This document shows positions 28,972 through 49,224 of a DNA stretch of 64,000 nt, piece by piece. The notes beneath the pieces are model-generated. The model made no database searches, was not told the origin of the DNA, and saw nothing but the letters and a program-made list of their open reading frames with translations. The position numbers and the translations under genes were made by a program. Origin of the DNA: Chitinophagaceae bacterium (GTDB lineage: Bacteria; Bacteroidota; Bacteroidia; Chitinophagales; Chitinophagaceae); contig CANGYR010000002.1 of the NCBI GenBank assembly GCA_947458275.1, positions 124,001 to 188,000 on the forward strand, read 5' to 3'. Within the stretch, counting starts at the first letter, position 1, and each line of letters starts with the position of its first letter.

Positions 28972-28979
28972 TACTTTTG
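28972..28979 (+). promoter_or_regulatory. -7 promoter element immediately before purB
   Basis: TACTTTTG is a perfect TAnnTTTG match only four bases before the purB ATG at 28984, which would make a leaderless or nearly leaderless transcript if used. Confidence 0.4.
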
Positions 28980-28983
28980 TGAC

Positions 28984-30685: not shown

Positions 30686-31810
30686 TTACAACTTAGTCAA
30701 CCAATAATAATTGGCCGCAAAATCAACTGTAATACGATATTTGCCTGGAGTTTCAGGATTGATGAACGCAGGATCAGCATCTGCTTGTTCTAATTCACCA
30801 AACAAAGCATTTCCGGTTGTTCTGTGGAACTGAGTACCCCAATTACCGAGCTCCTGAATCAATTTGTAAAAACCACCTTCAGTGAAATCAACATCCAAAG
30901 TGAATGAGAATGGACCTGATTTAGTAAATGCATATTTGGTATCTAATGATGCTGAATTGTTCCAGCCATTCAAGTTTCCAACAATATACAAATTAGCAGG
31001 AGTATTAACTCTTTCAGTTGCTGGTGCAACAGTGTAAGTAGCATTTTGGAAATCAACAGTCACTCTGTACCATCCTCCCACAAAAGGCTCAGGGAATGCA
31101 GGATCCGCGTCTTTTTGCTCAAATTGACCACTTAAAGGGCCTCCTCCATCTATCATGTGGTATTGTGTGCTCCAGTTACCCAATTCCTGAATAAGTTTAT
31201 ATGCCCCGCCATCCTGGAAATTAAAGATTCCTGCAAACTGAGTCTCACTGATTTGTGAGAACTGGTATTTGCTTTCCAGTGATGCTGAGTTATTCCATCC
31301 ATTGATATTACCTACAAGCCAGAGTGCAGCCGGTACAGGTATTTTCGGAGGAACTTTGTAAGGAGTGGCAGTTAAACTTACCGTGTTTGAAGTCAGACGC
31401 TCATTGTTATTGGCATAAGAAGAGATAACTCTCGCCTCAATGCCATAAGCAACTCCAAACTTTAGTCCCAGACTCAAAAGAATTGCATTTAAATCTTTGA
31501 CAAGAAATGTTCTTTTTAGTGTACCTGTAAATTCAGCAGAAACTGCTTTTGAGAAATTTCGACCAGCTGAATCGATTTGAAGAATATATTTCGTCTTGGC
31601 TTCATCTGTAGCATATCCCGGAAAAGTCCAGTTAAATGTCACAACTTCAGAGAGAGAGTCTTTTGGCTCCGGTGCAATGGTTGTTGCAGTGGTGGATAAC
31701 TGTGAAGCCTTCCCATTTTGATAAAAAGGTAGATCCGCCACTTTGTTACAAGCAGTCAAAAAAAGCGCTGCCGCAAACAAGAGTGAAGTGATTTTAAATA
31801 TGTGTTTCAT
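30686..31810 (-). CDS. SusF-like outer-membrane starch-binding lipoprotein
   Basis: The 374-residue lipoprotein has the lipobox LTAC with C21. A SusE-type N-terminal Ig-like domain (to about residue 150) is followed by two tandem starch-binding modules of about 105 residues each. Both modules carry very similar motifs: LWLVGNINGWNNSASL and LYIVGNLNGWNNSASL, then YKLIQELGNW with TQYH or TQFH. The Trp residues would stack on glucose units. It binds starch at the cell surface without cutting it. It is the last gene of the susC-D-E-F run, 30 bases after the susE-like gene. SusF is assigned by position and domain count. Confidence 0.85.
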   Translation of the reverse strand: MKHIFKITSLLFAAALFLTACNKVADLPFYQNGKASQLSTTATTIAPEPKDSLSEVVTFNWTFPGYATDEAKTKYILQIDSAGRNFSKAVSAEFTGTLKRTFLVKDLNAILLSLGLKFGVAYGIEARVISSYANNNERLTSNTVSLTATPYKVPPKIPVPAALWLVGNINGWNNSASLESKYQFSQISETQFAGIFNFQDGGAYKLIQELGNWSTQYHMIDGGGPLSGQFEQKDADPAFPEPFVGGWYRVTVDFQNATYTVAPATERVNTPANLYIVGNLNGWNNSASLDTKYAFTKSGPFSFTLDVDFTEGGFYKLIQELGNWGTQFHRTTGNALFGELEQADADPAFINPETPGKYRITVDFAANYYWLTKL

Positions 31811-31840: not shown

Positions 31841-32662
31841 TTATATTTTTACTATTGTGCATGTTTTGGCGTCCAGATCAACAGTGATTCTATATTTGCC
31901 TGCTTCATCCGGAGTGTTAATTTCTTTGGGATCACTTCCCCCACCTGGATTTTCAGATATACTTCCTCCGGTTGGTTCACAGCCACCCCATTGCGGTTGC
32001 CATGCGCCTCTTTTTGATAGAAACTTGTATTGTCCGCCGGGTTGGAAATCAATTTCAATCTGGAATTTTCTGTCACCCAAATAGGTGAATTCCTGACTGT
32101 CCGGAGGAGAGTTTGTCCAGTTTGATCCCGTTCCAGAACCTGTAATCCACAATCTGGGTTTGTTTAAATCTTCATGAGGAGTTACAACAAAACTGAAAGC
32201 ATTGGAATAAACAGGAGCTGCATTATTTCCAAGCGTTGCTTTGATTCTTACTTCAACTTCATGAGGAATACCTTCTTTCAGTTTAAGTTTTGAACCGGAA
32301 ACCAGGATATCATTAAACTCGCCACTTTTGAAAGTTTTGGTCAGATTGGCAGGAACTGCAATTTCCTGTTTTCTTGGATTGGTAAAATTTGATCCAACAG
32401 TATCTACCTGAATCAAATAGACTACATCGTATGAGCTTGCACCGGTATTGAATTTATATTCAGGATTGTTCCAGTCCAAGGTAAGTACTTCTGCAGATGT
32501 TTTACTAGAATTAAGAATGGTTGGATCGCTGTAGTTGGAAGCGGTTAAAGCTACCGGCTTAGCTGCGCCCTGATACAAAGTTTGGTTTTCATCTTTTTTA
32601 CAAGATGCAAATACCGATACCATTAGAGATAAGAAGAGTATTTGTTTGAGTATCTTTTTCAT
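31841..32662 (-). CDS. SusE-like outer-membrane starch-binding lipoprotein
   Basis: The 273-residue lipoprotein has the lipobox FASC with C21. The N-terminal Ig-like domain (residues about 30-165) contains EVLTLDWNNPEYKF. There is one C-terminal starch-binding module (from RLWITGSGTGSNWTN to the end) with WQPQWGGCEPTGG and GKYRITVDLDAKTCTI. It belongs to the same family as the downstream lipoprotein but has only one binding module. It lies 19 bases after the susD gene and is surely co-transcribed. The role is starch binding at the surface. Confidence 0.85.
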   Translation of the reverse strand: MKKILKQILFLSLMVSVFASCKKDENQTLYQGAAKPVALTASNYSDPTILNSSKTSAEVLTLDWNNPEYKFNTGASSYDVVYLIQVDTVGSNFTNPRKQEIAVPANLTKTFKSGEFNDILVSGSKLKLKEGIPHEVEVRIKATLGNNAAPVYSNAFSFVVTPHEDLNKPRLWITGSGTGSNWTNSPPDSQEFTYLGDRKFQIEIDFQPGGQYKFLSKRGAWQPQWGGCEPTGGSISENPGGGSDPKEINTPDEAGKYRITVDLDAKTCTIVKI

Positions 32663-32681: not shown

Positions 32682-34292
32682 TTAGTAACCAATATTTTGA
32701 GTCAAGTTAGGATTGGCTGTTCTGTTGGCTGCAGGAACAGGGAACAGATTGTATTTATCATCCACTGCAGTTCCTGATGCAACACCGCCTTTCCATGGCC
32801 ACAGATATTCTCCTGTTGTCAATTGACCGAAACGAATCAAATCTGTACGACGATGTCCTTCCCAGTACAACTCTCTGGCTCTTTCATCCAATACAAACTG
32901 TGGTGTGATGGTGGCAGCAACGATATTGCCATTGTCATTTCCATATGCTCTTTTTCTGAGATTATTGATATATGTTGTCGCAAGATTGATATCCCCAGCG
33001 CCACCGCGAGCAGTAGCTTCAGCATAAATCAAATACATTTCAGCCAGACGGAAAACAGGAAAATCTACGTCTGATAAATCTAGATTAATATCTGAAACGG
33101 GTTTGCCATCAGAACGAACATTTCTGTATTTAGCTACGGGCAATCCATTGCCCTTAAAATCATCGAGATTTTTGAGTTCAATTTGATCCGGAGTTGGTTT
33201 GTAAACTGGTGTGGTAAAGAGAGCCCTTTGGTCTGTTTGACCGGACAAATCAAAGAATTTATCGGCAAGCCCTTTGGTAGATCTGTAACCGAACCAACCA
33301 CCATTTACACCGTAGTATTGGTTATCGTCTCCAACTGCGCAATGCACAAATAAAGTGGTATTACCATATGAGGTGGATTTCAAACCATCACAGTTGATAG
33401 TGAAAATAAATTCATCCTTGCATTTGTCATTGTCAGCCAGGAATAATTCAGGATACTTGGGATGTAATGAATAACCGGCGTCAATTACTTTTTTTGCATT
33501 GGTCAATGCTTCAGTATATTGTTCAGTCCCGGTATACACTTTCGCATTCAAATAAATTCTTGCAAGCAAAGCCCAGGCTGCGGCTTGATCTGCACGACCA
33601 TATTCAACTGTTTTAGCAGGAGCTAAAGAACTTTCAATTGCCTTCAATTCGTCAACAATATATTTGTAAAGCTCTGGTCTGCTTATCTCACGTGGAGTAA
33701 ATGCTCCTATTTTGTCAGCCTCAGTGATGAAGGTAGATTTACCGAATAAATCCAACATTACCCAGTAGTTGAAAGCTCTTAAGAACCTTGCCTCAGCATT
33801 GGAGTTTCTGATATCTGTAGCTGCCGCACCGGTGATTCCTCTTTCAGCTAATTTTTCAGCAGTAGATTCACGAATATATTCGTTAATCAGAGTTATATTA
33901 TAAATAGGCCTTGCGTACATACCTTTGATAAAAGGATCTGCACTTGTCCATTTCAAAGCGTGAAAGTCTTTGATGGTTTGATCATTCCAAAAAACCACCG
34001 CCTCATCAGTAGGCAATTCCTGCGCATTGAACAGGTTTCTGATGAAAGAGGTTTGTTGCCCCTCATCCAATCCTCCTGCAATGTCAGGGTTTCCGGCTGC
34101 ACCGGTATTCCCGGTAGAATTCAATGTGCCATATATTTTGGCAAGAACACTTTTGTACCCTTCTGGTGTGGCATACACTTTATCAGGCGTCAAATCATTC
34201 ACCGGAAATAAATCCAGTTTTTTGGCACATGAGCTAATGGTAATAACCACTGCACTTGCCAGAATCAGTTTATTTAACATTTTAATTTTCAT
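32682..34292 (-). CDS. susD: SusD-like outer-membrane glycan-binding lipoprotein
   Basis: The 536-residue lipoprotein has its lipobox ISSC ending at C22. The N-terminal SusD-like and C-terminal RagB/SusD domains are both seen: KLDLFPVNDLTPDKVYATPE, NSNAEARFLRAFNYWVMLDL, RADQAAAWALLARIYLNAKV and the ending FPVPAANRTANPNLTQN. It forms the lid of the SusC channel and binds starch oligosaccharides. It is 20 bases from the susC stop. An in-frame ATG at 34280 is an alternative start. The starch specificity is inferred from the surrounding GH13 enzymes. Confidence 0.93.
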   Translation of the reverse strand: MKIKMLNKLILASAVVITISSCAKKLDLFPVNDLTPDKVYATPEGYKSVLAKIYGTLNSTGNTGAAGNPDIAGGLDEGQQTSFIRNLFNAQELPTDEAVVFWNDQTIKDFHALKWTSADPFIKGMYARPIYNITLINEYIRESTAEKLAERGITGAAATDIRNSNAEARFLRAFNYWVMLDLFGKSTFITEADKIGAFTPREISRPELYKYIVDELKAIESSLAPAKTVEYGRADQAAAWALLARIYLNAKVYTGTEQYTEALTNAKKVIDAGYSLHPKYPELFLADNDKCKDEFIFTINCDGLKSTSYGNTTLFVHCAVGDDNQYYGVNGGWFGYRSTKGLADKFFDLSGQTDQRALFTTPVYKPTPDQIELKNLDDFKGNGLPVAKYRNVRSDGKPVSDINLDLSDVDFPVFRLAEMYLIYAEATARGGAGDINLATTYINNLRKRAYGNDNGNIVAATITPQFVLDERARELYWEGHRRTDLIRFGQLTTGEYLWPWKGGVASGTAVDDKYNLFPVPAANRTANPNLTQNIGY

Positions 34293-34312: not shown

Positions 34313-37300
34313 TTAAAAATCAAGACTTGCTCCAATTGAATATATTCTTGGACGTGGATAGATATTATTATCTACACCAGTTGAATTGGCATTTTCAGGA
34401 TCTGCTCCTGAGTAATTGGTAATGATGAAGGCGTTTTGAATACTGGCAGAAACACGAAGCACCGTATTATTTCGCAATACATCACCCAAATTGTAGCCTA
34501 AGTTAATGTTATCCAATCTGAAGAATGAGGCGTTCTCTATATAATAATCCGACAAATACTGGTTGTTTTGGAATCCTGTTTTCAGATAATCAGCCGATGC
34601 ATTTCCAATGAAAACAATCGGATTTTTTATGGTTCTCAAAACACCGTTGTTAGAATTGAAGTTATTATACAAATAATTGCCTAACATTCCATGACCAGCC
34701 AAACCTACACTGAATTTTTTCAAAGTCAATGTTGTGTTTAAACCAAAGAGGAAATCAGGGGCAGGTTTCTTGTACAGATACCTGTCAGCATCATCGATTC
34801 TGCCGTCTCTGTTCAAATCATCATACAATCCTTCAATTGGTTTACCGGTAGTTGCATCATATACTTGCTTAAATACGTTGTAAACGTATGGAGCATGACC
34901 AACAAGAAACTTACCAATGTTGTTACCTGTACCGCCACTGATACCACTTACTTCTATTCCGGTAAATTTGGGATCTTGTTGTTTTAACAAGTTCGTGATT
35001 TTATTTTCATTGTAAGTAAGGTTGAATCCTAACTCCCAAGTCAAATTACTGCGTTTAACCGGTACCGTATTAACCGTCAACTCCACCCCTCTGTTTTCAA
35101 TACTTCCCACATTGGTTAATAAATCAATACCGAAGTTAGCACCGGGAGCTACAGGAACAACGCTCAATAAATCTTTAGTTTTCTTTCTGTAAACATCCAC
35201 CGAACCTGTTATTCTGTTATTGATAAATCCGAAATCTAAGCCGATGTTTTCAGTTGTGGTAGTTTCCCATTTGATATTGGCATCAAATGCAGATGGACGA
35301 AGGAAACTGTAGAAAGTATTTCCAAGTTGATATTGGGCCGTTGGAGAACTTTGTGAATAAACAGGAAGATATGAATAATATGCTATCCCATCCTGTTGTC
35401 CGGTAATACCCCAGCCTAAACGCAATTTTAAATCAGAAACAGCCGAACTGTTTTTGAAGAACTCATCTTTTAATTTCCAAGCCACCGCTAATGCAGGGAA
35501 AATACCCTTTCTGTTATCAGGAGAGAATTTAGAACTCGCATCCTGACGAACTGATGCTGTAATCAGGTATTTATCTGCCAGTGAAAAGTTAACCCTTCCA
35601 ATGTAAGAGTTTAGTCTGTATTGAGGTCTGTCAGTAGCAAAAACAGGTTGCGATCCTGGAATCTGAACTCCGTTCTGACCAAAAGCAGCGAAGTTAAACA
35701 CATCCGTATAGAAGTCCTGATAACTGTGCGTGAGCAACACATCCATTTTAGAGTTGATGCTTTTTAATTCTTTGGTATAGAATAGAGAAAGATCAGCTAT
35801 ATAGTTTTTCTTTTTTTGTTCGTAGTGAGAAAATCTTCCTTTGGTTCTGAAATTGGTGGCTGAGGTAGAATCTATATTATCATTACCCCACCCTGTTGAA
35901 TTATCTAAACCAAAGTTTGCCATCAAATGTAAATCAGGGAAGAAATGCAGTTTGTAATCCAACTGAACATTTCCGATGTATCTGTTTACAAGTGATTGGT
36001 TACTTCTTTGATTCAGTAATCCCAAAGGATTACGGGTTGCTAATTGAATAGGATTCAGATCCGCTTGCAACCATTCATAGTAACCGCTGTTTTTTGAAGG
36101 ATTACCACTGAATACAGGTTTGGTTGGGTCAAATGCAACAGCAGATCCAATCGCCCCACCATCCGCAAAAGTATTTCTGGTATGACTTAATTTGAAGTTC
36201 ACATTGACAGCCAGATGATCGTCAAAGAATTTAGGGGAGAGATTCAATGAAGTGGAAACCCTGTCGAATTTGTCTGTTTTCAATACCCCCTCTTGATAAT
36301 AATATCCTACTGAGAATCTGTATGGCACATTCAGCTTGCCTTGACCAAAACTACTTGCAGCGCTGAAGTTGGTATTTTTACCAAGTGCTCTCTGGTATAT
36401 TTGTTTCTGCCAATCAGTATTGGCAGTACCCAATAATTTTTTATAAGTATCTATTCCTGTTGCAGCTGCATCAGCATTGATTACGTTTCTGATCTGATCA
36501 GCGGATAGTACATCCACATATCTGTTTGCAGGAACTTCATTGAGAGAGAACTGTGTATTGAAATTATATTTTGCTTTACCGCCACGACTTTTTTTAGTTG
36601 TTACAATCAACACACCATTGGAAGCTCTTGAACCATACAATGCGGTTGCAGAGGCGTCCTTCAAAACAGAGATTGATTCAATATCATCAGGATTGATGGT
36701 ATTCAGGAAGTTTGCAGAACCTGCGATGCCGTTGCTTTCTACAGGAACTCCGTCAACAACAATCAATGGATCATTACTTGCATTTAGTGAAGCGCCGCCA
36801 CGAATACGGATTTTACTTCCGCCACCGGGTGCACCACCGCCGCTTGTAATCTCAAGACCGGCAACTTTACCCACCAGCAACTGATCTGTTGATGCAATGT
36901 TTCCTTTTTGGAAATCTTTTGCATTAACCTGAACAACTGATCCGGTCAAATCTGTTTTCTTTCTGGTTCCGTAAGCAACAACTACAACCTCATCCATCTT
37001 TCTTTCTGATGGAGACAGTTTGATGTTTACTTTGTTGCCACTGAATGAAACTTGAGATGTTTCGTAGTTCACAGAAGAAACAACAAGTGTTCCCGATGTA
37101 GTTGGCGTTGAAATACTGAAAGAACCATCTGATCCTGTTTGAACAGCTTTGCTGGTACCTTTCAATGTAACCGTAACACCCGATAATCCTGCTCCGCTTT
37201 TTGCGTCAGTCACAACCCCTGCGAGTTGATTCTGTGCCATAGCTGAAAAACTCAGCAATGACAATAACAGCGAAGACAATAAAATTCCGGAAAATTTCGT

Positions 37301-37315
37301 AATAGATCTTCTCAT
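34313..37315 (-). CDS. susC: SusC-like TonB-dependent starch oligosaccharide transporter
   Basis: The 1000-residue outer-membrane protein has a signal peptide (residues 1-27, ending AMA). A carboxypeptidase-D-like regulatory domain (about 30-105) follows, then VVVVAYGTRKKTDLTGSV and a plug domain with IRIRGGASLNASNDPLIVVD. The rest is a 22-strand barrel ending in a terminal Phe (IYSIGASLDF). It imports oligosaccharides with energy from TonB. It is the first gene of the susCDEF operon. A 15-bp dyad sits 30 bases upstream of the start and is a candidate operator. Confidence 0.95.
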   Translation of the reverse strand: MRRSITKFSGILLSSLLLSLLSFSAMAQNQLAGVVTDAKSGAGLSGVTVTLKGTSKAVQTGSDGSFSISTPTTSGTLVVSSVNYETSQVSFSGNKVNIKLSPSERKMDEVVVVAYGTRKKTDLTGSVVQVNAKDFQKGNIASTDQLLVGKVAGLEITSGGGAPGGGSKIRIRGGASLNASNDPLIVVDGVPVESNGIAGSANFLNTINPDDIESISVLKDASATALYGSRASNGVLIVTTKKSRGGKAKYNFNTQFSLNEVPANRYVDVLSADQIRNVINADAAATGIDTYKKLLGTANTDWQKQIYQRALGKNTNFSAASSFGQGKLNVPYRFSVGYYYQEGVLKTDKFDRVSTSLNLSPKFFDDHLAVNVNFKLSHTRNTFADGGAIGSAVAFDPTKPVFSGNPSKNSGYYEWLQADLNPIQLATRNPLGLLNQRSNQSLVNRYIGNVQLDYKLHFFPDLHLMANFGLDNSTGWGNDNIDSTSATNFRTKGRFSHYEQKKKNYIADLSLFYTKELKSINSKMDVLLTHSYQDFYTDVFNFAAFGQNGVQIPGSQPVFATDRPQYRLNSYIGRVNFSLADKYLITASVRQDASSKFSPDNRKGIFPALAVAWKLKDEFFKNSSAVSDLKLRLGWGITGQQDGIAYYSYLPVYSQSSPTAQYQLGNTFYSFLRPSAFDANIKWETTTTENIGLDFGFINNRITGSVDVYRKKTKDLLSVVPVAPGANFGIDLLTNVGSIENRGVELTVNTVPVKRSNLTWELGFNLTYNENKITNLLKQQDPKFTGIEVSGISGGTGNNIGKFLVGHAPYVYNVFKQVYDATTGKPIEGLYDDLNRDGRIDDADRYLYKKPAPDFLFGLNTTLTLKKFSVGLAGHGMLGNYLYNNFNSNNGVLRTIKNPIVFIGNASADYLKTGFQNNQYLSDYYIENASFFRLDNINLGYNLGDVLRNNTVLRVSASIQNAFIITNYSGADPENANSTGVDNNIYPRPRIYSIGASLDF

Positions 37316-37345: not shown

Positions 37346-37360
37346 GTGTAATTAAGACAC
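37346..37360. promoter_or_regulatory. Candidate operator upstream of susC (GTGTA-N5-GACAC)
   Basis: GTGTAATTAAGACAC is a dyad of two 5-base half-sites separated by five bases, 30 bases before the susC ATG. It matches the geometry of two sites in the amylase/symporter divergent region. A lone half-site GTGTA is at 37487. It is proposed to be the target of the Nudix-type regulator at 37531. Confidence 0.5.
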
Positions 37361-37530
37361 AATATAGGAGAATTTTATTAACAAAAAATTAATGTTGGGA
37401 AAAAAATTTGTGAGGGTAATCATGTTGTAAAAAAAACCTCTACAAAAACCAAATACAATAATTATATATTCGAAATTATCGAATGTGTGTAAAATTGAGA
37501 AAAAAGATTAAAACAAAGAATAGCGAAGAT

Positions 37531-38295
37531 TTAAAAATCAATTCCGGACCATTTTTTCTTTTTTTGTTCGTACTTATCGTAATCAAAACTGTATAATTTT
37601 CCGGGTCGGTGTGGCACATTGGTTTCGATTTCATTGAGATCAACCAAAAAATCCATTGCAAAGAATTTTTTTCTGAAATTTCTTCTGTCGAGTTTGATGC
37701 CCAGGATGGCTTCATATAAATTCTGTAAATCTCTCAAAGAAAATTTGCTGGGAAGCAGACTAAAACCGAGGGGATGTTCCTGTACTCTTTTTTGAAGCCT
37801 TTGATAACAGGTTTCAAAAATTTCCTGGTGATCGAACGCAAGATTTTTTACTCCAGAAACATCATGCCAATCCAATTCGTTTTCACGAATCTTCAATTTA
37901 TGATGCATGATGTTGATGAGAGAATAATATGCCACTGTGATTACTCTTCCGCCTGGATGGCGATTCACTTTTCCGAAAGTCTGAACCTGCTCTAAATAAA
38001 CATCATCCAGACCGGTTCGTTTTTTCAATATTTTATACGCAGCTTTATCAAGTTCGTCATTGGGACTCAATAAGTCGCCCAACAAAGACAAACGCCCTTT
38101 GTACTCTTTTAAATCAGAGCGTATCAACAAGACCTTTAATTTATTTTCATCAAACCCAAAGATTACACAGTCTACAGAAAGAGCTATTTTATTTAAGCTC
38201 TCTACTTCAGACTGTATAATCTTCAGCGTTTTGACAGTCTTGTTGTTTTTGTTGTCTTTATTCTTAAGCAAAGCAGATCGTGTAACAACCAACAT
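37531..38295 (-). CDS. Nudix-fold transcriptional regulator (NrtR/AraR-like) of the starch locus
   Basis: The 254-residue protein has a Nudix domain (about residues 38-165) and a C-terminal winged helix (about 175-240) with LLPSKFSLRDLQNLYEAILG and LDRRNFRKKFFAMDFL. This is the NrtR/AraR arrangement. The Nudix box is degenerate: where active enzymes have REUXEE, this protein has KILKKR, so the catalytic glutamates are K92 and R93. It should sense a ligand rather than hydrolyse one. It starts 18 bases after the amylase stop and lies between that gene and susC. This suggests it controls starch use; no SusR-type regulator is in the window. The N-terminal 25 residues are Lys/Asn-rich. Confidence 0.85.
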   Translation of the reverse strand: MLVVTRSALLKNKDNKNNKTVKTLKIIQSEVESLNKIALSVDCVIFGFDENKLKVLLIRSDLKEYKGRLSLLGDLLSPNDELDKAAYKILKKRTGLDDVYLEQVQTFGKVNRHPGGRVITVAYYSLINIMHHKLKIRENELDWHDVSGVKNLAFDHQEIFETCYQRLQKRVQEHPLGFSLLPSKFSLRDLQNLYEAILGIKLDRRNFRKKFFAMDFLVDLNEIETNVPHRPGKLYSFDYDKYEQKKKKWSGIDF

Positions 38296-38313
38296 AAATC
38301 CAAAATTATTTAT

Positions 38314-41211
38314 TTACTGTAAAGTCAAATTGCCGGGAATCAGCAACTTCTCATTTTGCGTAACGGTAAATGATGCATTTTGAGATACAGTATATGGAAT
38401 ATTGAGCGTACAAGTTCCGCCAATTCGTGGATTGATGATCACCCTGCTGTTAGCCGGGAGCGGATTAGGCGGTACTATACCACACTCCCAATTTGCTGGG
38501 CTGTTAAAATTTCCATCTCCTACAAATCGGTAAACATTATCAGTGAATCCATCGCAGTCATCATCAGCGCCATTTCCACATATTTCCTGAGGGCCACAGT
38601 TAATATTAGGCCTGTTAACTAAGACCCTATACTGACCGGGATTTAGCGTAAATGAAGAACTATTGCCTGTTACATTGATTGGTTGACTGGTAGGGGTTAA
38701 ATAATTGTACCATAAACCGTTGAAAGGAAAAGGCACTGACCTGGTTTGTGGTACCACATCAAAATTGCCGACCACTACCATTCCTAAGGTGCCGTTGTTA
38801 ACCATGAAAGATTTTATAGCCCCTAAAAATGAAACATCCGATATAAAAATTGGATTGATGCTGTAATCGAATAAGGCTTTAAACGTTTGATTCGTTCTCA
38901 ACCTATTCAAGTCTCCCGCGACTTTATACACCGCTCTTCTACCTGTATTGGAGAAATAATCCCAACGGATTGGTTTCGGATCTGTGCGACATTCAGGGGG
39001 ATTGACAACACCTCTGCCCGGACAATGATTGATGGATGAATCATAGCCCAACTCCTGAAACTGCCACATCATTTTAGGTCCGGGAATTGTGAGCAAAAAT
39101 GCATGTGCAATCTGCATTCTACTGATAGCAACATTGGCTGATCTTACATCGTAGTTGATATTACTGTTATTCCCAAAGTTTCTATTTTTATAGTTAATTC
39201 GCTCTTCGTCATGACTCTCCATATAAGTCATTAGATTGTTGTTGGTCCAACCGCGATTCTGAGCTAACCCTGAAGAGAAATCGGCGTTAGAGTTAGTAAA
39301 ACCCATTGAAGCTTCTGCATACCTGCTTTCAAGATTACCCCAAAGCATGAAGCCGATATCGGAAAGTACTTTTTCCTCTTCATTTCTTGCAAAATGCTCC
39401 AGTATTTTGTAACAACCCGGAGATTTAAGCTCAAGAGTATCATAATATCTCCTCCAAATATTAATACGACTTTGATCATACGCATCCCAACCTGCCTGAT
39501 TTCCAAGATTATTTTGTTGAGTGAAGCCTTTTGACAAGTCAAAACGGAATCCATCTACTTTGTAATTCTGCAACCAATGCTCTACCACTCTGCTGAAAAA
39601 TCTTTGAGTGGGTGCTGCCTCATGGTTAAAATCATACCCCACTCCAAACGGATGTCGGTCTGTCTGATTGAACCAGGGGTTATCCGCGGCAGGCCTGTTG
39701 TTGGCGGCATCCCAGTACATTTGTACCATAGGAGACAAACCAAAAGAGTGGTTTAATGCAATATCTAATGTGACAGCAATACCATTTTCATGACAAACAT
39801 CTATGAATCTTTTCATGTCTTCTTCGGGACCATAATATTTGTCGGGAGCAAAATAGAACATCGGATTATATCCCCAGCTGTTGTTTCCTTCAAATTCATT
39901 CACAGGCATCAACTGAATGACATTGACACCGAGATTTTTTAAATACCATAAAGTATCAGTTAAAGATTTCCAGTTATGAGATTTGAAAAAGTCTCTAAGG
40001 TGCAATTCATACACCACGATGTTGGTTTGATTTGGCCTTTGATACCCTGTGGTTACAAAATTGTAAGGAGTTTTGTTGGTCTGGAAAGTACCTACAATAC
40101 CGGTGGTAAATCCTTCCGGATAGGGTTTTAAATTGGGATAAACTTCCGGCTCGATAAATTTATCATTCCATGGATCCAGCACTTTCTCTACATATGGATC
40201 TGTGACTGCCAGATTTCCGTCTATTAAATACTGGAACGAGTATTCCACTCCGGGCGTCAACCCGGTTATTCTTAACCACCAAAAGCCGGTGGCATCTTTT
40301 TTCATTTGATAGGTAGGCGTTTCTTCCCAGTTGCTGCCGGGAATATCTCCAATAATACAAATCCTAGATTTTCCGGGAGCAAACAAACAAAATGTAGCTG
40401 CGGTTTTATCTGCTTCATAGGTGATTCCGTCTCTTAATGAAGCAGGCTTATTTTCATTCACTACAGTTCCAGGCACAAAAAATTTAATCGTATCATATTT
40501 GGTTACTCCCGATGCTGACGCTTCCAAAACAATTTGCTGGGTTCCCGCAACTGAAATAGATGCATTAGCTGTGATAGAGGTATTGTTGCTTACTGTATTA
40601 ATTGTAGCGCCGTTTAAATATAATTTAAGGTTCGCAGAAATATTAGCATTGCCGGTAACAGAAATTGAACTTCCTACAGTTGCGGTTATTGGCTCGGCCT
40701 TTTGATTGAATGTAGGCTGTTTTGGTGGCTGTACCAAGCTTGCCGCAAGTGCAGATGAGTAAATAGGTATATACATATCGCTTCCATCGATATTTCTTTG
40801 TACCAGCGTCCCAGCAGTATTACGAAACAGCATTGTTATTTTTAAAATGGTTTCGCCGGCTGGCACACCATAAAAGGCGCGAATTCCGCCTGTAATGGTA
40901 AAAGACCATTTATTGTTGCCAAGTGAAGTAGCCTGAAGTGCAGGAACAGCAGTATTAAAATTAGCATTATTCTTCACATACTTCCAGTCTGAATTGGATG
41001 TGCTTGAATTAGTAATTACGCCGGTATGTACATAAATAGGAGTCGTAGTTCCAATCACTCCGTTCAATCCCTTATTACCCTTTGTGGCATCCACAGTAAT
41101 GGTTAACGGGGTTGTAGATTCTGTGGGGAAATTATTGCTTAAAGAAAGTAACTGAGCCATGCCATTTGCTCCAATCGTAAGGCTGAATAAAACAACAAGT
41201 AGTTTTTTCAT
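38314..41211 (-). CDS. Secreted multidomain GH13 alpha-amylase
   Basis: A 965-residue secreted amylase with a signal peptide (MKKLLVVLFSLTIGANGMAQ). Ig-like and CBM48-like N-terminal domains run to about residue 370 (GDIPGSNWEETPTYQMKKD). The GH13 barrel follows, with catalytic D558 (GFRFDLSKGF), E605 (ILEHFARNEE) and D668 (MESHDEERI). After the barrel comes a metal-binding-like EICGNGADDDCDGFTDN segment. The last 70 residues (GNFNSPANWECGIVPPN to the end, closing LLIPGNLTLQ) have no function I know. No T9SS sorting domain is recognisable. It likely cuts starch at or outside the cell surface and leads the operon that continues into the regulator gene. Confidence 0.9.
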   Translation of the reverse strand: MKKLLVVLFSLTIGANGMAQLLSLSNNFPTESTTPLTITVDATKGNKGLNGVIGTTTPIYVHTGVITNSSTSNSDWKYVKNNANFNTAVPALQATSLGNNKWSFTITGGIRAFYGVPAGETILKITMLFRNTAGTLVQRNIDGSDMYIPIYSSALAASLVQPPKQPTFNQKAEPITATVGSSISVTGNANISANLKLYLNGATINTVSNNTSITANASISVAGTQQIVLEASASGVTKYDTIKFFVPGTVVNENKPASLRDGITYEADKTAATFCLFAPGKSRICIIGDIPGSNWEETPTYQMKKDATGFWWLRITGLTPGVEYSFQYLIDGNLAVTDPYVEKVLDPWNDKFIEPEVYPNLKPYPEGFTTGIVGTFQTNKTPYNFVTTGYQRPNQTNIVVYELHLRDFFKSHNWKSLTDTLWYLKNLGVNVIQLMPVNEFEGNNSWGYNPMFYFAPDKYYGPEEDMKRFIDVCHENGIAVTLDIALNHSFGLSPMVQMYWDAANNRPAADNPWFNQTDRHPFGVGYDFNHEAAPTQRFFSRVVEHWLQNYKVDGFRFDLSKGFTQQNNLGNQAGWDAYDQSRINIWRRYYDTLELKSPGCYKILEHFARNEEEKVLSDIGFMLWGNLESRYAEASMGFTNSNADFSSGLAQNRGWTNNNLMTYMESHDEERINYKNRNFGNNSNINYDVRSANVAISRMQIAHAFLLTIPGPKMMWQFQELGYDSSINHCPGRGVVNPPECRTDPKPIRWDYFSNTGRRAVYKVAGDLNRLRTNQTFKALFDYSINPIFISDVSFLGAIKSFMVNNGTLGMVVVGNFDVVPQTRSVPFPFNGLWYNYLTPTSQPINVTGNSSSFTLNPGQYRVLVNRPNINCGPQEICGNGADDDCDGFTDNVYRFVGDGNFNSPANWECGIVPPNPLPANSRVIINPRIGGTCTLNIPYTVSQNASFTVTQNEKLLIPGNLTLQ

Positions 41212-41301
41212 ACAATCTGATTTGTTTTTCTGTTGGTTAATTTTTTTCCGATTTATTTATAAAAAAAAATACGGAGTGGTTTAAGGAGAATATTTATGAA
41301 C

Positions 41302-41316
41302 GTGTAAAATAAACAC
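41302..41316. promoter_or_regulatory. Candidate operator on the amylase side (GTGTA-N5-AACAC)
   Basis: GTGTAAAATAAACAC has the same spacing as the susC site. It lies 90 bases before the amylase start codon, inside its probable leader. Confidence 0.45.
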
Positions 41317-41424
41317 ATTATTCCAATTTTCCTCAAAGCGTATAAAAGATTTTTTTAAAAACATTAAAAAATTATACATTAAAACCAACCTCCCGGAAGT
41401 ACGGAAATATAAAAAGATAAAAAT

Positions 41425-41454
41425 TTTGTCAACCCGATTTTTATTGTATTTTTA
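41425..41454 (+). promoter_or_regulatory. Promoter of the maltose symporter operon
   Basis: TTTG (41425-41428), an 18-base spacer and TATTTTTA (41447-41454) match the Bacteroidota consensus except for the last base. Transcription would start about where the downstream dyad begins. Confidence 0.5.
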
Positions 41455-41459
41455 GCAAA

Positions 41460-41474
41460 GTGTATATTTTACAC
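41460..41474. promoter_or_regulatory. Candidate operator on the symporter side (perfect dyad)
   Basis: GTGTATATTTTACAC is a perfect dyad, and with flanking A and T is 17 bp. It lies 29 bases before the symporter ATG and overlaps the predicted transcription start, a position suited to repression. Confidence 0.55.
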
Positions 41475-41503: not shown

Positions 41504-43060
41504 ATGTCAATGCAGCAAACTTCTCCGCAAAAAAAACTATCATTTTGGGACTTGTGGAACATGAGTTTTGGATTTTTTGGAATACAGTTCGGCTTTGAGT
41601 TGCAAAACTCCAATGTCAGCAGGATATTTGAAACGCTGGGTGCCAACAAAGATGAGATACCCATCCTGTGGATTGCTGCACCATTGACAGGTCTTCTTGT
41701 TCAGCCTATTATTGGTTATCTGAGCGACAGAACCTGGCATCCTTTCTGGGGCAGAAGAAGAATCTTCTTTTTTATAGGCGCCATATTATCTACGATCGCA
41801 TTGTTTGTAATGCCCAACTCCCCTACACTATGGATTGCGGGCGGTATGCTCTGGGTGCTGGATGCTTCCATCAATATTTCCATGGAGCCGTTTAGGGCAT
41901 TTGTGGGCGATAAACTCCCACCAAGCCAGCGCACTTCAGGTTTTGCCATGCAGAGTTTCTTTATTGGAATTGGCTCGGTGATTGCAGCCCTACTCCCCTG
42001 GATTTTTACCAACTGGTTTAATGTAAGTAACACCGCAGAAGCAGGAAAAATCCCCGACTCCGTTAAGTGGTCTTTTTATCTGGGGGGCCTCGCCTTCCTT
42101 ACGTCTGTTTTGTACACCGTGTTTACCACAAAAGAATTCCCGCCGGAAAATCTGGAAGAATTCAGGAAAGAAAAAAAGAATACCACATTTTCTCAGGCGC
42201 TTTCAGAAACATTCGGTGGTATTTTCAAAATGCCTAAAACCATGCGTCAACTGGCTTTTGTACAATTTTTTACGTGGTTTGCCTTGTTCGCGATGTGGAT
42301 CTATGCTACCAATGCCGTTACAGCCAACAAATACAATATGAAAGTCGATAAAATGGTTGTAGATAAAATGGCCAATGCAGTTTCGGCTGAAATACTGAAA
42401 GAAGAAAATCTGAAAGATCCGAAAAAAAGAAAAAATATCGAATCGTTGAAAGGCGATATCGCAGAAATCAGAAAATACCGTTCTGAACAAAATCCTGTTA
42501 CCATTTCTGTCAATCTTGCCAACTATTTTTCCGACAGCCTTAATACTTATGTTTCAGCTGAAGATAAAGCTGAATTGAGAAGAGTGCAGAAAGAATACAA
42601 TGATGGTGCAGACTGGCTGAATGTTTGCTCTTCCGTAAGAAATGGTATTGCTGCTATTTTTGCATTCATCATCCCGCTGATTGCATTCAAGACCAACAGG
42701 AAAATCACCCACATGATTTGTCTGGTTATAGGTGGCCTGGGATTATTGTCTATTTATTTCATCACAGACCCCAAACTCATCATTATTTCAATGGCTATGG
42801 TGGGCATTTCATGGGCAAGTATTTTATCTATGCCTTACGCTATGTTATCCAATGCGCTCCCCTCAAATAAAATGGGTTATTATATGGGTGTGTTTAATTT
42901 TTTCATCGTTATACCGCAAATCGTTGCCGCAAGTATTCTTGGATTCTTTACAATGAAAGTTTTTCATGCCAATACTTTGAACACTGTTGCACTGGGAGGA
43001 GCTTCGATGATTATTGCCGGATTACTTACACTGATTGTTAAAGATGAAGATGATAAGTAA
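41504..43060 (+). CDS. Maltose/sucrose-type MFS symporter (SLC45/GPH-like)
   Basis: A 518-residue membrane protein with about 12 helices. The start LSFWDLWNMSFGFFGIQFGFELQNSNVSRIF resembles plant SUT and SLC45 proteins and bacterial maltose transporters. GYLSDRTWHPFWGRRRIFF is the loop 2-3 motif of this group. A soluble insert of about 100 residues (about 285-375, rich in Lys and Glu) is between helices 6 and 8. It likely moves maltose or maltodextrins from periplasm to cytoplasm. It starts the plus-strand starch operon and is followed 40 bases later by a neopullulanase gene. Confidence 0.87.
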   Translation: MSMQQTSPQKKLSFWDLWNMSFGFFGIQFGFELQNSNVSRIFETLGANKDEIPILWIAAPLTGLLVQPIIGYLSDRTWHPFWGRRRIFFFIGAILSTIALFVMPNSPTLWIAGGMLWVLDASINISMEPFRAFVGDKLPPSQRTSGFAMQSFFIGIGSVIAALLPWIFTNWFNVSNTAEAGKIPDSVKWSFYLGGLAFLTSVLYTVFTTKEFPPENLEEFRKEKKNTTFSQALSETFGGIFKMPKTMRQLAFVQFFTWFALFAMWIYATNAVTANKYNMKVDKMVVDKMANAVSAEILKEENLKDPKKRKNIESLKGDIAEIRKYRSEQNPVTISVNLANYFSDSLNTYVSAEDKAELRRVQKEYNDGADWLNVCSSVRNGIAAIFAFIIPLIAFKTNRKITHMICLVIGGLGLLSIYFITDPKLIIISMAMVGISWASILSMPYAMLSNALPSNKMGYYMGVFNFFIVIPQIVAASILGFFTMKVFHANTLNTVALGGASMIIAGLLTLIVKDEDDK

Positions 43061-43100
43061 GGACAATTTTAATTTTTTACAAATTCAAATCAACAGCAAA

Positions 43101-44951
43101 GTGAAAAGAATCTTATTGACCGCGTTTTTTTTCTTATCTCATTATTTTGTTTTCTCTCAAAACAATGACATCAGCATATACCCTACCAATTGGTGGGTAA
43201 AAATGAAAAACAGCTCCCTTCAATTAATGGTGTACGGAAAGGATATTGCTAACGCTAAAGCATACACGATTAACTATCCGGGAGTAACTATTAAAAAAGT
43301 AAACAAAGTAGAAAACAAAAATTATGTTTTCCTGGACCTCAACATCTCGCCTTCTACAAAGCCCGGAAAATTCACCATCAACATTCAAAATAATTCAGGC
43401 AGCCAACCTGTCTATTATGAATTAAAAAATCGTCGTCCCGGCAAGAGCACTTCTTATGCACAAGGCGTCACTACCAAAGATTTCATTTACCTCATCATGC
43501 CAGACAGGTTCAGCAACGGTGATGAATCCAACGACAGAGTTCCCGGTATGCGTGATCAAACGCTTAGAAGAGATACAGTATTCAACAGACATGGCGGGGA
43601 TTTAAAAGGCATTCAAAATCATCTGGATTATCTAAGCAATCTGGGCGTTACAACTTTATGGTTGAATCCAATTTGGGAAAATGACATGCCAAACAGAACA
43701 GAACATGGATACGCTTTCACCGATCACTATAAAGTAGACCCGCGCTTAGGCGGCAACCAGGCATATCAAAATCTGATCGATGCCGCACATGCCAAAGGAT
43801 TGAAAATAATACAGGATGCTGTTTACAACCATGTTGGTTCATTTCATCACACCATCACCGATATGCCTATGAAGGACTGGGTACACCAATGGGATGAATA
43901 CACCAACACGAGCTATAAAGACCAGACGCTGTTTGATCCTTATGCTTCACAAAAAGATAAAAAGGTTATGTCCGACGGATGGTTTGTACCTCAAATGCCG
44001 GATCTGAATCAAAACAATCCCTACGTAGCCAATTTCCTCATTCAGCATGCCATCTGGTCTGTTGAAGAATTTGGCATCGATGGATGGAGAATCGACACTT
44101 ATGCATACAACAACCTGGATTTCATGAACAGATGCAACAAGTCGTTGGTGGATGAATATCCCAACATCACACTTTTCGGAGAGACTTGGGTTCAGGGTGT
44201 TCCCAATCAAAGTTATTTCTGTGAAAACAATTACAACATTCCCTACAAAAGCAATTTGCAAGGCGTGACAGATTTCCAAACGCTTTGGGGAATCACCGAT
44301 GCAATGACAAAAGATTTTGGATGGAATGATGGCGTAAACAAATTGTATACCACTTTGGCGCAGGACTTTGTGTATAAAAATCCTAATCGCAATGTCATCT
44401 TTTTAGATAACCACGATATATCCCGCTTCTATTCAGTAATTGGAGAAGATGTAAATAAATATCTCTCTTCAATAACCTGGCTGATGACATGCAGAGGCAT
44501 ACCGCAATTATATTACACTGCTGAGTTCGCTACGCCCGGTTTTACCAGTCCTAATGACGGATATGTACGACTCGATTTTCCAGGCGGCTGGAAAAATGAC
44601 AGCATCAATAAATTCAATGCTTCCGGCAGAACGGAGAAAGACAATAGGATTTTCAACCACCTTTCAACACTTGCGAATTACAGAAAAAATTCTAGCGCGT
44701 TGATTAATGGGAAATTCATGCAATACCTTCCGGACGATGGATTGTATGTGTACTTCCGTTATGATAAAAATCAAACCATTATGGTGGTGATGAATACTTC
44801 CAAGACTGATAAGAAAGTAAACATCAATAAATTTGCTGAAAGAACAAAAGGATTTAGCAAATACCTTGATGTCGTAAATAAAATAACCGGCGATTTAAAA
44901 GATTTTTCTGTTGGGTCTTATCAGTCTGTGGTGTATGAGTTGAAGAGATAA
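43101..44951 (+). CDS. Neopullulanase/cyclomaltodextrinase-like GH13 (SusA-like), secreted
   Basis: The enzyme degrades maltodextrins and pullulan in the periplasm, as SusA does. An N-terminal cyclomaltodextrinase domain (ISIYPTNWWVKMKNSSLQLM) precedes the GH13 barrel. With the start used here the catalytic residues are D332 (GWRIDTYAY), E361 (LFGETWVQG) and D439 (LDNHDISRF). I chose the GTG at 43101 because it gives a textbook signal peptide (MKRILLTAFFFLSHYFVFSQ) and no overlap with the symporter gene. ATGs at 43044 or 43050 would put 17-19 extra residues before it. The product has 616 residues. Confidence 0.85.
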   Translation: MKRILLTAFFFLSHYFVFSQNNDISIYPTNWWVKMKNSSLQLMVYGKDIANAKAYTINYPGVTIKKVNKVENKNYVFLDLNISPSTKPGKFTINIQNNSGSQPVYYELKNRRPGKSTSYAQGVTTKDFIYLIMPDRFSNGDESNDRVPGMRDQTLRRDTVFNRHGGDLKGIQNHLDYLSNLGVTTLWLNPIWENDMPNRTEHGYAFTDHYKVDPRLGGNQAYQNLIDAAHAKGLKIIQDAVYNHVGSFHHTITDMPMKDWVHQWDEYTNTSYKDQTLFDPYASQKDKKVMSDGWFVPQMPDLNQNNPYVANFLIQHAIWSVEEFGIDGWRIDTYAYNNLDFMNRCNKSLVDEYPNITLFGETWVQGVPNQSYFCENNYNIPYKSNLQGVTDFQTLWGITDAMTKDFGWNDGVNKLYTTLAQDFVYKNPNRNVIFLDNHDISRFYSVIGEDVNKYLSSITWLMTCRGIPQLYYTAEFATPGFTSPNDGYVRLDFPGGWKNDSINKFNASGRTEKDNRIFNHLSTLANYRKNSSALINGKFMQYLPDDGLYVYFRYDKNQTIMVVMNTSKTDKKVNINKFAERTKGFSKYLDVVNKITGDLKDFSVGSYQSVVYELKR

Positions 44952-45175: not shown

Positions 45176-46525
45176 ATGAACTTAAAAAAACTCCTCCTCT
45201 CCGCAGCCTGCATCATGGCGCTGCATTGTGTGAATGCGCAAAAAGTCGCGACACGCGGTTCCCACTCCGTATGGAGCAAGCAATCTAATGTGTATGAAGT
45301 CAACCTTCGTCAATACTCCGCCTCCGGCTCCATCAAGGACTTCCAAAAACATCTGCCGCGATTGAAAAAAATGGGTGTAGAAATATTGTGGTTCATGCCC
45401 ATCACGCCTATCGGCATAGAAGGAAGAAAAATGACTTCCGATGAACTGGGCAGCTACTATGCCGTCAGAAATTATCAGGCATTTAATCCCGAGCACGGAA
45501 CACTTGCGGACTTTAAAGCTTTTGTAAAAAAAGCACAAGGCATGGGTTTCAAAGTAATTACCGACTGGGTGGCCAATCACTCGGCACTTGATAATCATTG
45601 GGTAAAAGCACATCCTAATTTTTATGTGAAAGACAGTACAGGAAAATTAATATCGCCATTCGACTGGACGGATGTTTATAAATTAAATTACAAAGACCGC
45701 GAACTGAGAGACAGTATGATTCAGTCGATGAGATTCTGGATCAAAGAAGCCAACATCGACGGCTTCCGTTGTGATGTTGCCGAAGAAGTGCCTGCTGATT
45801 TTTGGAAAGAATGCATCGACAGTCTGAAAAAAAACAAGGATGTATTCATGCTGGCGGAAGGCAACAAAGCATGGTTGCATGAAGTTGGATTTGACCAAAC
45901 CTATGCATGGGATATGATGGGCACAATGACGGATTTGTACGCTAAAAAAATCAATCTCAAACAATTCGATTCAGCTTTGAATGTAAGCATCGCTTCCTTT
46001 CCGAAAAATGCCTACCGTTTATATTTCACCACTAACCATGATGAAAACAGCTGGAACGGTACAGAATTTGAAAAATACGGTGACGCCTACAAGACCTTTG
46101 CCGTATTTACCCAGACCATCTATCAGAGCGTGCCGTTGATTTACAACGGACAGGAAGAGCCCAATAAAAAGAGACTCCGTTTCTTTGTAAAGGACACTAT
46201 CAAATGGGGTAAGTATGCCAATGAGAAGTTTTACAAGGCGTTGCTGACACTCAGAAGGTCGAACCCTGCTCTTGCGGCGGATGCATCCTACAGAAGACTA
46301 TCTACTTCAAATAATGATGCAATATTTTCCTATGTAAGAGAAAAAGGAGGACGTAAAGTTTTAGTTATACTCAATCTCTCAGATAAGGAACAAAAATTTA
46401 CCATCAATGACAAAATCATTGCCGGCAACCCCTATAATATCTTCCTTTATGCCAACGAAAAGGTTGATACCAAACATCAGTTCAATATCGAACCCTGGGG
46501 CCATATCGTTTATGACTATAAATAA
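45176..46525 (+). CDS. Secreted GH13 alpha-amylase, small form
   Basis: A 449-residue secreted alpha-amylase with a signal peptide (residues 1-21, ending VNA) and a compact GH13 barrel. The catalytic residues are D200 (GFRCDVAEEV), E228 (MLAEGNK) and D289 (TTNHDENSW). The short product-side region GIEGRKMTSDELGSYYAV and a C-terminal beta domain (from about residue 370) are normal. It probably hydrolyses maltodextrins in the periplasm. It is the third plus-strand starch gene, after a 224-base repeat-rich gap, so it may have its own promoter. I saw no TAnnTTTG box. Confidence 0.9.
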   Translation: MNLKKLLLSAACIMALHCVNAQKVATRGSHSVWSKQSNVYEVNLRQYSASGSIKDFQKHLPRLKKMGVEILWFMPITPIGIEGRKMTSDELGSYYAVRNYQAFNPEHGTLADFKAFVKKAQGMGFKVITDWVANHSALDNHWVKAHPNFYVKDSTGKLISPFDWTDVYKLNYKDRELRDSMIQSMRFWIKEANIDGFRCDVAEEVPADFWKECIDSLKKNKDVFMLAEGNKAWLHEVGFDQTYAWDMMGTMTDLYAKKINLKQFDSALNVSIASFPKNAYRLYFTTNHDENSWNGTEFEKYGDAYKTFAVFTQTIYQSVPLIYNGQEEPNKKRLRFFVKDTIKWGKYANEKFYKALLTLRRSNPALAADASYRRLSTSNNDAIFSYVREKGGRKVLVILNLSDKEQKFTINDKIIAGNPYNIFLYANEKVDTKHQFNIEPWGHIVYDYK

Positions 46526-46614: not shown

Positions 46615-48534
46615 ATGTCTCATCATAAACATACAGCCATTCCTGTTGACGATTATCCGGTTTATGATGGAGACGATTTAGGTTTTCGTTATACCCCATC
46701 TCACACAACTTTTCGCTTGTGGGCACCATCGGCACAACATGCTGAATTATTACTCTTCCACAACGGCGAGACTGACTATCCTTTCAGGATTGTGCAAATG
46801 GATGATGACATCAATGGAACCTGGATTGCCAAACTTGAAGGAGACTGGAAAGGTATTTTTTATACATTCAAAGTATCTATCGATTATAATTGGAGCAATG
46901 AAGTTTTGGATCCTTATGCGATAGCATGTGGTGTTAATGGAAAGAGAGGAATGGTCATTAATTTAAATGAAACAAATCCTGAGGGTTGGGATAAAGATTT
47001 GTCGCCAAATTTTTCTGAAAATAATCATCCGCTCGACGCTATCATCTATGAGCTACATATCAGAGATGCAAGCATACATGAAGACTCCGGCATTATTCAT
47101 AAAGGAAAATTCATTGGACTTGCAGAAGAAGAATCTGAAAATAAAAAAGGATTTTCTACCGGCTTGAGTCATATCAAATCACTAGGCGTTACTCATGTAC
47201 ACCTTCTTCCAATATTTGATTTCAACACGGTAGACGAACATCCTCACAGCAAAACACTTTACAATTGGGGATACGATCCAATGAATTATAATATCCCTGA
47301 AGGTTCTTACAGTACTAATCCTTTTGATGGTATTACACGAATTAAAGAGCTGAAAGAAATGATTCAGGCATTTCATAAAAACGGTCTGCGGGTGGTTATG
47401 GATGTTGTGTACAACCATACTGTCTTTGCCGAAAAATCAAATTTCCATCAGCTGGTACCCGGTTATTATTACAGACACCACAGCAATGGTGAATTCTCCG
47501 ATGCATCTTCCTGCGGAAATGAAACTGCGAGTGAAAGGCCTATGATGAGGAAATTTATTTTAGACAGCATCACTTACTGGCTAAAAGAATTTCATATAGA
47601 TGGATTTCGTTTTGATCTTATGGGCATTCACGATATTGAAACCATGAATCTGATTGCCGATACACTTCGATCCATTAAACCAGATATACTGCTGTATGGT
47701 GAAGGATGGGCCGGCGGCAATTCACCGCTGCCGGAATTCATGCGTGCAGTTAAGCACAATGTATCCCGATTAAACAATATTGCTGTATTCAGCGATGAGA
47801 TGAGAGACGCAGTTAAAGGCAGCGTATTTGATGCAGGAGAAAAAGGATTTGTGAGTGGCAATATCTATAAAACAAACACCATAAAATCCGGCATAGTTGC
47901 TTCGTGTACACATCCTCAAGTAGAGAATCATCCATTTGCTACCGACCCGGCACAGGTTATCACCTATTGCGAATGTCACGACAACTATACACTGTGGGAT
48001 AAATTGAATCTGTCAAATCCTGAAACAAAGCCTGAAGACATAAAAAAAATGCATCTGCTGGCATTGACTATTATTCTGACTTCCCAGGGAATTCCTTTTT
48101 TACACGCAGGAACTGAATTTTTCAGAAGCAAAGATTTTGTAGAGAATTCTTACAAATCACCCGACAGCATCAACGCTATTAACTGGAGTGAAAAAAGCAA
48201 AAACATAGAAGCAGTTGAATATATTCAGTCATTAATTGAGTTAAGGAAAAATCATCCAGCATTCAGAATGTATTCAGCAACTCAAATCCAACAACTCATT
48301 ACGTTCGATAACAACACAGAGGAAGGAACAATTGCATACACTATTAATGCAGCGCAAGCAAATGATTCCTGGAAAAAAATATGGATAGCATTTAATGGAA
48401 CACGTGAACAAAAAAGTTTTACATTGCCTAAAGGGAAATGGACTCCTGCCCTCTCAACAGGAAAAAAAATACTGAACTATTCAGATAAATTTACGCTTAC
48501 AAAATTCAACTCCGCAATACTATACATTGCTTAA
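46615..48534 (+). CDS. pulA: Type I pullulanase / debranching enzyme, cytoplasmic GH13
   Basis: The 639-residue enzyme cuts alpha-1,6 branches in pullulan, limit dextrin or glycogen. The CBM48-like N-terminal domain (RLWAPSAQHAELLLF) precedes the GH13 barrel. YNWGYDP, the hallmark of type I pullulanases, is near residue 220. The catalytic residues are D334 (GFRFDLMGI), E363 (LLYGEGWAG) and D456 (YCECHDNYTLWDKL). There is no signal peptide, so it would act inside the cell on imported branched dextrins or stored glycogen. This links the starch genes to glgA and glgC. Confidence 0.92.
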   Translation: MSHHKHTAIPVDDYPVYDGDDLGFRYTPSHTTFRLWAPSAQHAELLLFHNGETDYPFRIVQMDDDINGTWIAKLEGDWKGIFYTFKVSIDYNWSNEVLDPYAIACGVNGKRGMVINLNETNPEGWDKDLSPNFSENNHPLDAIIYELHIRDASIHEDSGIIHKGKFIGLAEEESENKKGFSTGLSHIKSLGVTHVHLLPIFDFNTVDEHPHSKTLYNWGYDPMNYNIPEGSYSTNPFDGITRIKELKEMIQAFHKNGLRVVMDVVYNHTVFAEKSNFHQLVPGYYYRHHSNGEFSDASSCGNETASERPMMRKFILDSITYWLKEFHIDGFRFDLMGIHDIETMNLIADTLRSIKPDILLYGEGWAGGNSPLPEFMRAVKHNVSRLNNIAVFSDEMRDAVKGSVFDAGEKGFVSGNIYKTNTIKSGIVASCTHPQVENHPFATDPAQVITYCECHDNYTLWDKLNLSNPETKPEDIKKMHLLALTIILTSQGIPFLHAGTEFFRSKDFVENSYKSPDSINAINWSEKSKNIEAVEYIQSLIELRKNHPAFRMYSATQIQQLITFDNNTEEGTIAYTINAAQANDSWKKIWIAFNGTREQKSFTLPKGKWTPALSTGKKILNYSDKFTLTKFNSAILYIA

Positions 48535-49223: not shown

Positions 49224-49224
49224 A

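Follow-up and report, generated by a model that had tools for sequence, protein, structure and literature searches.

Analysis of a 64,000-nucleotide stretch from a Chitinophagaceae bacterium (assembly GCA_947458275.1, contig CANGYR010000002.1, positions 124,001 to 188,000; hereafter the window) revealed a starch locus in which three 15-bp dyads lie at the promoters of susC, an amylase gene and a sugar symporter gene. As a whole, these dyads are best explained as predicted operators of a repressor of the NrtR/AraR type whose gene lies between them (37531-38295, minus strand), a reading that we put at a probability of roughly 0.85 on the basis of sequence comparison.

An exact scan of both strands of the window for the core pattern GTGTA-N6-ACAC gave four strand matches at three places, compared with a mean of 0.14 and a maximum of 1 in 100 shuffles. 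These exact matches occur only at the three starch-gene promoters, at 37346-37360 (GTGTAATTAAGACAC), 41302-41316 (GTGTAAAATAAACAC) and 41460-41474 (GTGTATATTTTACAC), exactly where the initial annotation had located its dyads. The arms of the last site form a perfect dyad, as had been claimed, and hence match on both strands. The putative operator of the susC operon (GTGT-N7-ACAC, minus strand) lies 30 bases 5' of the start of susC (34313-37315, minus strand), and that of the symporter operon (plus strand) 29 bases 5' of the start codon of the symporter gene (41504-43060, plus strand); both distances agreed with those given earlier. The third putative operator (41302-41316, minus strand), an exact match in the window and conserved in relatives, belongs to the operon in which a GH13/CBM48 amylase-type gene (38314-41211, minus strand; assigned by domain search) comes first and the regulator gene follows it 18 bp behind on the same strand. 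The dyads had been proposed to link all starch transcription units starting here; this was the case for the susC, amylase and symporter units, but not for the genes of a GH13 protein (45176) and of the pullulanase (46615), since the window scan detected no exact core 5' of either. Likewise, a GTGTA described as an orphan half-site is present at 37487, but it has no ACAC partner, no support for it as a functional half-site was found, and it was set aside.

The consensus of the Bacteroidetes promoter -7 element is TAnnTTTG. A -7-like element (TATTTTTA, 41447-41454, plus strand) has its first base 13 bp before the start of the symporter operator, and its position, together with this consensus, places the operator on the predicted transcription start. 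A scan for sigma-70-type promoters yielded 15, compared with 13.8 expected. DNA looping between the sites at 41302 and 41460, 158 bp apart, was considered and rejected, the corresponding spacings in relatives (among them 95, 162, 172, 180 and 300 bp) showing no evident constant phase.

The protein encoded at 37531-38295 combines a degenerate Nudix domain with a winged helix and is, by sequence, a member of the NrtR/AraR family. It matched the profiles NrtR_WHD (PF21906, 1.9e-24) and AraR_C (PF19368, 9.7e-11), and weakly NUDIX (PF00293, 21.2 bits at a cut-off of 21.1); inspection by eye revealed an impaired Nudix signature, in which the positions of the catalytic Glu, the catalytic Arg and the first Gly are replaced. 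The closest solved structure was BtAraR (5bs6, 6.9e-48), followed by SoNrtR (3gz5, 1.7e-20), with both domains covered in each case. The protein is the sole PF21906 match in the window's genome, scored 125.4 of 400 bits against the NCBIfam NtrR equivalog, and has starch genes as neighbours.

BtAraR (BT0354; PDB 5bs6, 5dd4, 5ddg, 5deq) is the L-arabinose repressor of Bacteroides thetaiotaomicron, and the oligonucleotides that it binds contain GTGTATTTGATACAC, GTGTTACTTTTACAC and GTGTAAAAAAGACAC, all of the form GTGT-N7-ACAC (PMC4666351). In the crystal, base contacts by K179, R180, N181, K184, K204 and R205 define GTGT (PMC4666351). We compared these positions in 63 regulators aligned to BtAraR, 56 of them Ferruginibacter-type and seven from Chitinophaga. 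R180, N181, K184 and R205 were identical in 63/63, and K179 and K204 were replaced by R and H, respectively, in 63/63, so that four of the six contacts are identical.

Loci of relatives were fetched by regulator similarity alone (best 80 of 134), and 50 of the 80 were starch-type, carrying a susC, amylase or symporter gene at at least 40% identity (840,629 bases in total). Among the 111 GTGT-N7-ACAC sites in these 50 loci, 103 fell inside windows placed at the 5' ends of the susC, amylase and symporter genes; these windows reached from 400 bases upstream to 60 inside the gene start and comprised 48,760 bases with overlaps counted twice. In the same upstream windows, each of the other spacers from 3 to 13 gave 0-9 sites, and a ranking of all 256 four-base dyads at spacer 7 placed GTGT first (103), with TTTT next (38). 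The culturable relative Ferruginibacter paludis (L032) has the same locus. Counted by gene, for genes of 40% identity or more whose start is no closer than 250 bp to the end of the locus, the site was present upstream of 16/16 symporter, 43/44 amylase and 35/42 susC genes, in line with the expected conservation at the susC and GH13 promoters of relatives; the counts for susD, cyclomaltodextrinase, second GH13 and pullulanase genes were 0/36, 0/17, 0/9 and 2/6, respectively. These conserved sites, and the binding of the same sequence by BtAraR, supported the earlier assignment of the operator set to the 37531-38295 protein.

In these relatives, TAnnTTT had its first base 12 or 13 bp before the proximal symporter operator in 15/16 cases and before none of seven distal operators. 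Operator pairs at a distance of 23-25 bp were present in seven of the 35 susC loci with a site, and one locus had a pair at 48 bp. The regulator gene had an upstream site of its own in 6/76 loci (L020, L039, L054, L056, L078 and L079), none of which has the amylase gene directly before the regulator gene; own sites where the regulator does not lie behind the amylase fit autoregulation. As a separate observation, ATTGC, often as CGATTGC, recurs just 5' of symporter, amylase and susC starts in many relatives (among L012-L080), and the corresponding window sequence reads CTGATTATC.

At the genome level, regulator (E up to 1e-20, which includes weak homologues) and symporter (E up to 1e-60) co-occurred in 34 of 78 genomes, with seven having only the one, seven only the other and 30 neither (p=1.6e-8); within the genus, the counts were 24 with both, 4 and 5 with one only and 14 with neither (p=5.8e-5). 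Because the genomes are kin, these p values serve as a guide only. Upstream regions were read for 24 of 30 fetched symporters, the other six having no anchor, and carried an exact site in 13/14 same-genus genomes with a starch-type regulator, the remaining one (G018) having one mismatch. In the 27 genomes of the genus that carry the regulator, two of which (G014 and G035) owe their starch-type status to a fragment, perfect dyads numbered 132 against 60 for the control; in 19 genomes of the genus that lack it, the figures were 31 and 35.

Sites were also found beyond the starch locus, and the phosphofructokinase gene pfkA and the alpha-glucan phosphorylase gene glgP probably belong to the same regulon, as judged from their upstream sequences. 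In the window's genome, an exact site (GTGTAAATTTGACAC) lies 5' of pfkA at C2:51398, and a site with one mismatch (ATGTATTAATTACAC) lies 62 bases before glgP. Among 30 examined of the 69 genomes with pfkA, the window's genome included, an exact site within 200 bp upstream was present in 13/21 with a starch-type regulator versus 1/9 without. Allowing up to one mismatch raised these counts to 17 and 3, respectively; the shuffle means were 0.02 (exact) and 0.76 (up to one mismatch) with the regulator, and 0.01 and 0.26 without. For glgP (30 of 51 genomes), exact sites were present in 13/23 genomes with the regulator, a count that restores two rows first left out for lack of an anchor (11/21 before), and in 0/7 without a starch-type regulator; with up to one mismatch, 18/21 genomes with the regulator had a site (shuffle mean 1.03).

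A survey of neighbours, covering part of the listed exact sites in eight relatives (G003 left out, and mostly A+T-rich sites chosen in G004, G018 and G022), revealed glgP (three genomes), symporter paralogues (two), a nucleotidyltransferase/GlyA pair (three) and individual GH97 and GH13 genes; many other neighbours had no clear relation. At L224, L240 and L259, in three relatives, the site is flanked by a GlyA-like gene and, divergent from it, a sugar-nucleotidyltransferase gene. In the window's genome, an exact site at G000:C8:6258-6272 (L008:1501-1515) is followed after 18 bp by a ParA-like start, and the only other perfect dyad (G000:C4:128417-128431; L002:1501-1515) lies 5' of a gene for a small protein with a sub-threshold match to the glycogen-binding domain AMPK1_CBM. 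This CBM48-type small protein was rejected as a target: excluding two of 20 rows without a readable start, and with some starts guessed, an exact site was present in 1/13 genomes with the regulator, namely the window's own, and in 0/5 without. We also rejected pckA: two relatives (L235 and L253) have a site some 200 bp before it, but in Chitinophaga L356 the match falls inside the coding start, and L353 carries the same site sequence, so that it was not counted. Also set aside were CGGGTGTAAAAATTACACCCG in L232 and a near-identical site in L251, which look like hairpins and are probably not operators.

Several observations weigh against the three dyads being operators of this repressor, and some of them favour other explanations. 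In the 2.885-Mb genome, the core gave 12 strand matches (10 places) versus 13 for the reversed control, as would be expected if the matches had arisen by chance in AT-rich promoters. By itself, the core thus shows no enrichment across the genome and does not define a regulon; the comparison with the rest of the genome named in the initial annotation gave a mixed outcome, since the perfect dyad GTGTA-N5-TACAC was found at two places versus none in the control. Nevertheless, three sites at three starch promoters within 4.1 kb, and a conservation in relatives that is specific in position and spacer, make chance an extremely improbable source. Furthermore, two of three genomes without a detected regulator retain the symporter site (G010 and G037, 77% and 88% complete), which could mean that a different transcription factor, and not the product of the neighbouring gene, reads the sites. 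We consider this very unlikely, since the motif is identical to the operator described for BtAraR, the closest solved relative (PMC4666351), the contact residues are retained, and dyads exceed the control only in regulator-bearing genomes of the genus. Further points against the repressor reading are that the relatives are not independent of each other; that four Chitinophaga genomes showed no enrichment of perfect dyads (14 forward versus 12 control); that G039, which has a 38% homologue only and was excluded from the genus count, had eight dyads versus one in the control; and that sites with one mismatch occur without a starch-type regulator at pfkA (3/9) and glgP (2/5), where they may be relics or chance matches. 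Among genomes of other families, whose regulator homologues are more distant, the exact symporter site was present in 1/7, and this figure, set against 13/14 within the genus, indicates that the scheme belongs to this clade.

The direction of control is a further question, because the same protein might bind the sites and activate, or activate some promoters and repress others. Some operators are distant: those on the amylase side stand 139-341 bp ahead of the symporter gene, and at pfkA and glgP the distance from site to start varies. Against this, BtAraR binds DNA as the apo-protein and is released by L-arabinose (PMC4666351), and the 12-13 bp that separate the -7-like element from the proximal symporter sites (15/16) correspond to a blocking position. 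Activation thus appears unlikely, if somewhat less so than a foreign factor, and repression by the 37531-38295 protein fits both the family and the placement of the sites.

If the regulator acts as such a repressor, an apo-dimer would grip the two GTGT half-sites through BtAraR-like contacts and, at the susC, amylase-regulator and symporter promoters, would block transcription as long as starch is absent. A starch breakdown product would then bind the inactive Nudix domain and release the protein from DNA, as L-arabinose does with BtAraR. The position of its gene behind that of the amylase makes autoregulation probable: expressed from the amylase operon, the regulator would repress itself and keep its own level in check. 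With pfkA and glgP under the same protein, starch uptake, phosphorolysis and glycolysis would respond together.

Comparison of the sugar pocket suggested that the effector, which presumably derives from starch, is not arabinose, because the pocket differs from that of AraR. Residues R34, F36, G48, F49 and L67 of BtAraR correspond to S60, L62, D74, L75 and R93 in the window protein. Among the 63 regulators, S (60) or C (three) occupies the R34 position, D the G48 position (63/63), L (54) or I (nine) the F49 position and R the L67 position (63/63), and R86, F129 and H131 are retained in 63/63. Of the arabinose-binding trio R34, R86 and H131, described as fully conserved among AraR orthologues (PMC4666351), R34 is therefore lost and the other two are kept. 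Nor is the regulator linked to arabinose utilization genes, starch genes surrounding it instead; the AraR-like locus of Prevotella (L081) contains araA. The effector may, as a guess, be a phosphorylated glucose species, because R93 occupies the position of K76, the phosphate contact of SoNrtR that is equivalent to L67 of BtAraR (PMC4666351), and because S60 and D74 replace arabinose-pocket residues. In a tree of 87 rows with long branches and unsure deep joins, the 56 Ferruginibacter-type rows, including the window protein, shared one side of a branch (97/84), the Chitinophaga rows stood beside them (100/98), and BtAraR and the Prevotella rows stood apart (100/99); some of the 56 have no starch genes in their available stretch.

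The regulator resembles BtAraR in its two-domain family, its predicted GTGT-N7-ACAC operator, the probable control of SusC/SusD-type loci and tandem operators about 24 bp apart (PMC4666351), the araM promoter of the BtAraR regulon having an operator pair with exactly this distance (PMC4666351), but differs in its starch locus, five changed pocket residues and separate clade. SoNrtR, the ADP-ribose-responsive protein of Shewanella oneidensis, shares the Nudix and winged-helix domains and a basic residue at the K76 position, but regulates NAD metabolism rather than starch genes, pfkA and glgP, and its Arg41 position is S60 here (PMC4666351). BtXylR (BT0791, xylose) is, by description, likewise a sugar-type NrtR of Bacteroidetes (PMC4666351). 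SusR of Bacteroides (BT3705), also compared by description, controls starch utilization operons too, but is a membrane protein, an activator and maltose-sensing (PMC3878776).

In seven Chitinophaga loci, no starch genes adjoin the regulator gene, which is followed after about 160 bp by an operator. The segment after this operator contains a 22-base core identical in 7/7 loci and then a terminator-like hairpin, and may represent a small RNA controlled in the same way; the candidate lies at L061:10863-11122, at the same place in L062-L066 and L069, and also in L357 and L358. No shared reading frame was evident among the seven segments, and an Rfam search of L061 and L064 returned nothing at threshold. 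Folding of the segment was not exceptional (z -1.49), the covariation term was unfavourable (+0.88), and 5/28 base pairs change on both sides. Across 396 genomes from the order, the 22-base core occurred in two, which share a genus and in which it adjoins regulator and operator. In two Chitinophaga genomes (L350 and L352), similar genes are preceded by a perfect dyad at a distance of about 100 bp, and the L352 protein has a VWA domain. Taken jointly, these features might describe a third sugar specificity of NrtR proteins, a phosphorylated-glucose-sensing starch repressor that couples starch import across the outer membrane, glgP and pfkA and, in some Chitinophaga whose regulator gene has no starch genes next to it, drives a conserved small RNA from the same operator, although we regard this combination as doubtful.

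Other genes of the locus complete the starch system. On the minus strand, susC, whose product is a SusC-type TonB-dependent receptor (TIGR04056), is accompanied by genes for a SusD-type starch-binding protein (32682-34292; domain searches) and two SusE-domain proteins (31841-32662 and 30686-31810; PF14292), in addition to those for the amylase and the regulator. On the plus strand, the sugar symporter (MFS/GPH type by domain searches) is followed by a cyclomaltodextrinase-type GH13 (43035-44951), whose listed reading frame overlaps the symporter gene and which is probably in the symporter operon, by a GH13 with a SusG C-terminal domain (45176-46525) and by a type I pullulanase (46615-48534), the last two without an operator of their own. 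Four scanned genes at the edges (28109-30315 and 48591-51156) matched menaquinone biosynthesis, adenylosuccinate lyase, RsmG/GidB and M1 peptidase, with no regulator among them.

In published work, SusR, a membrane activator, is the regulator linked to Bacteroides starch loci (PMC3878776), and the literature searches listed no NrtR-type regulator of starch genes or pfkA. Sugar-type NrtR proteins with a GTGT-N7-ACAC operator are known; what that literature did not show is a clade for starch whose regulon extends to pfkA and glgP. A family of soluble repressors for which crystal structures exist and whose operator can be read would represent a second logic of starch control beside SusR, one that may be predictable for environmental Chitinophagaceae from their sequences. 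With its altered pocket and its likely targets pfkA and glgP, the regulator would be a concrete, testable case of a dead-enzyme scaffold that switches its sugar specificity and keeps its DNA site.

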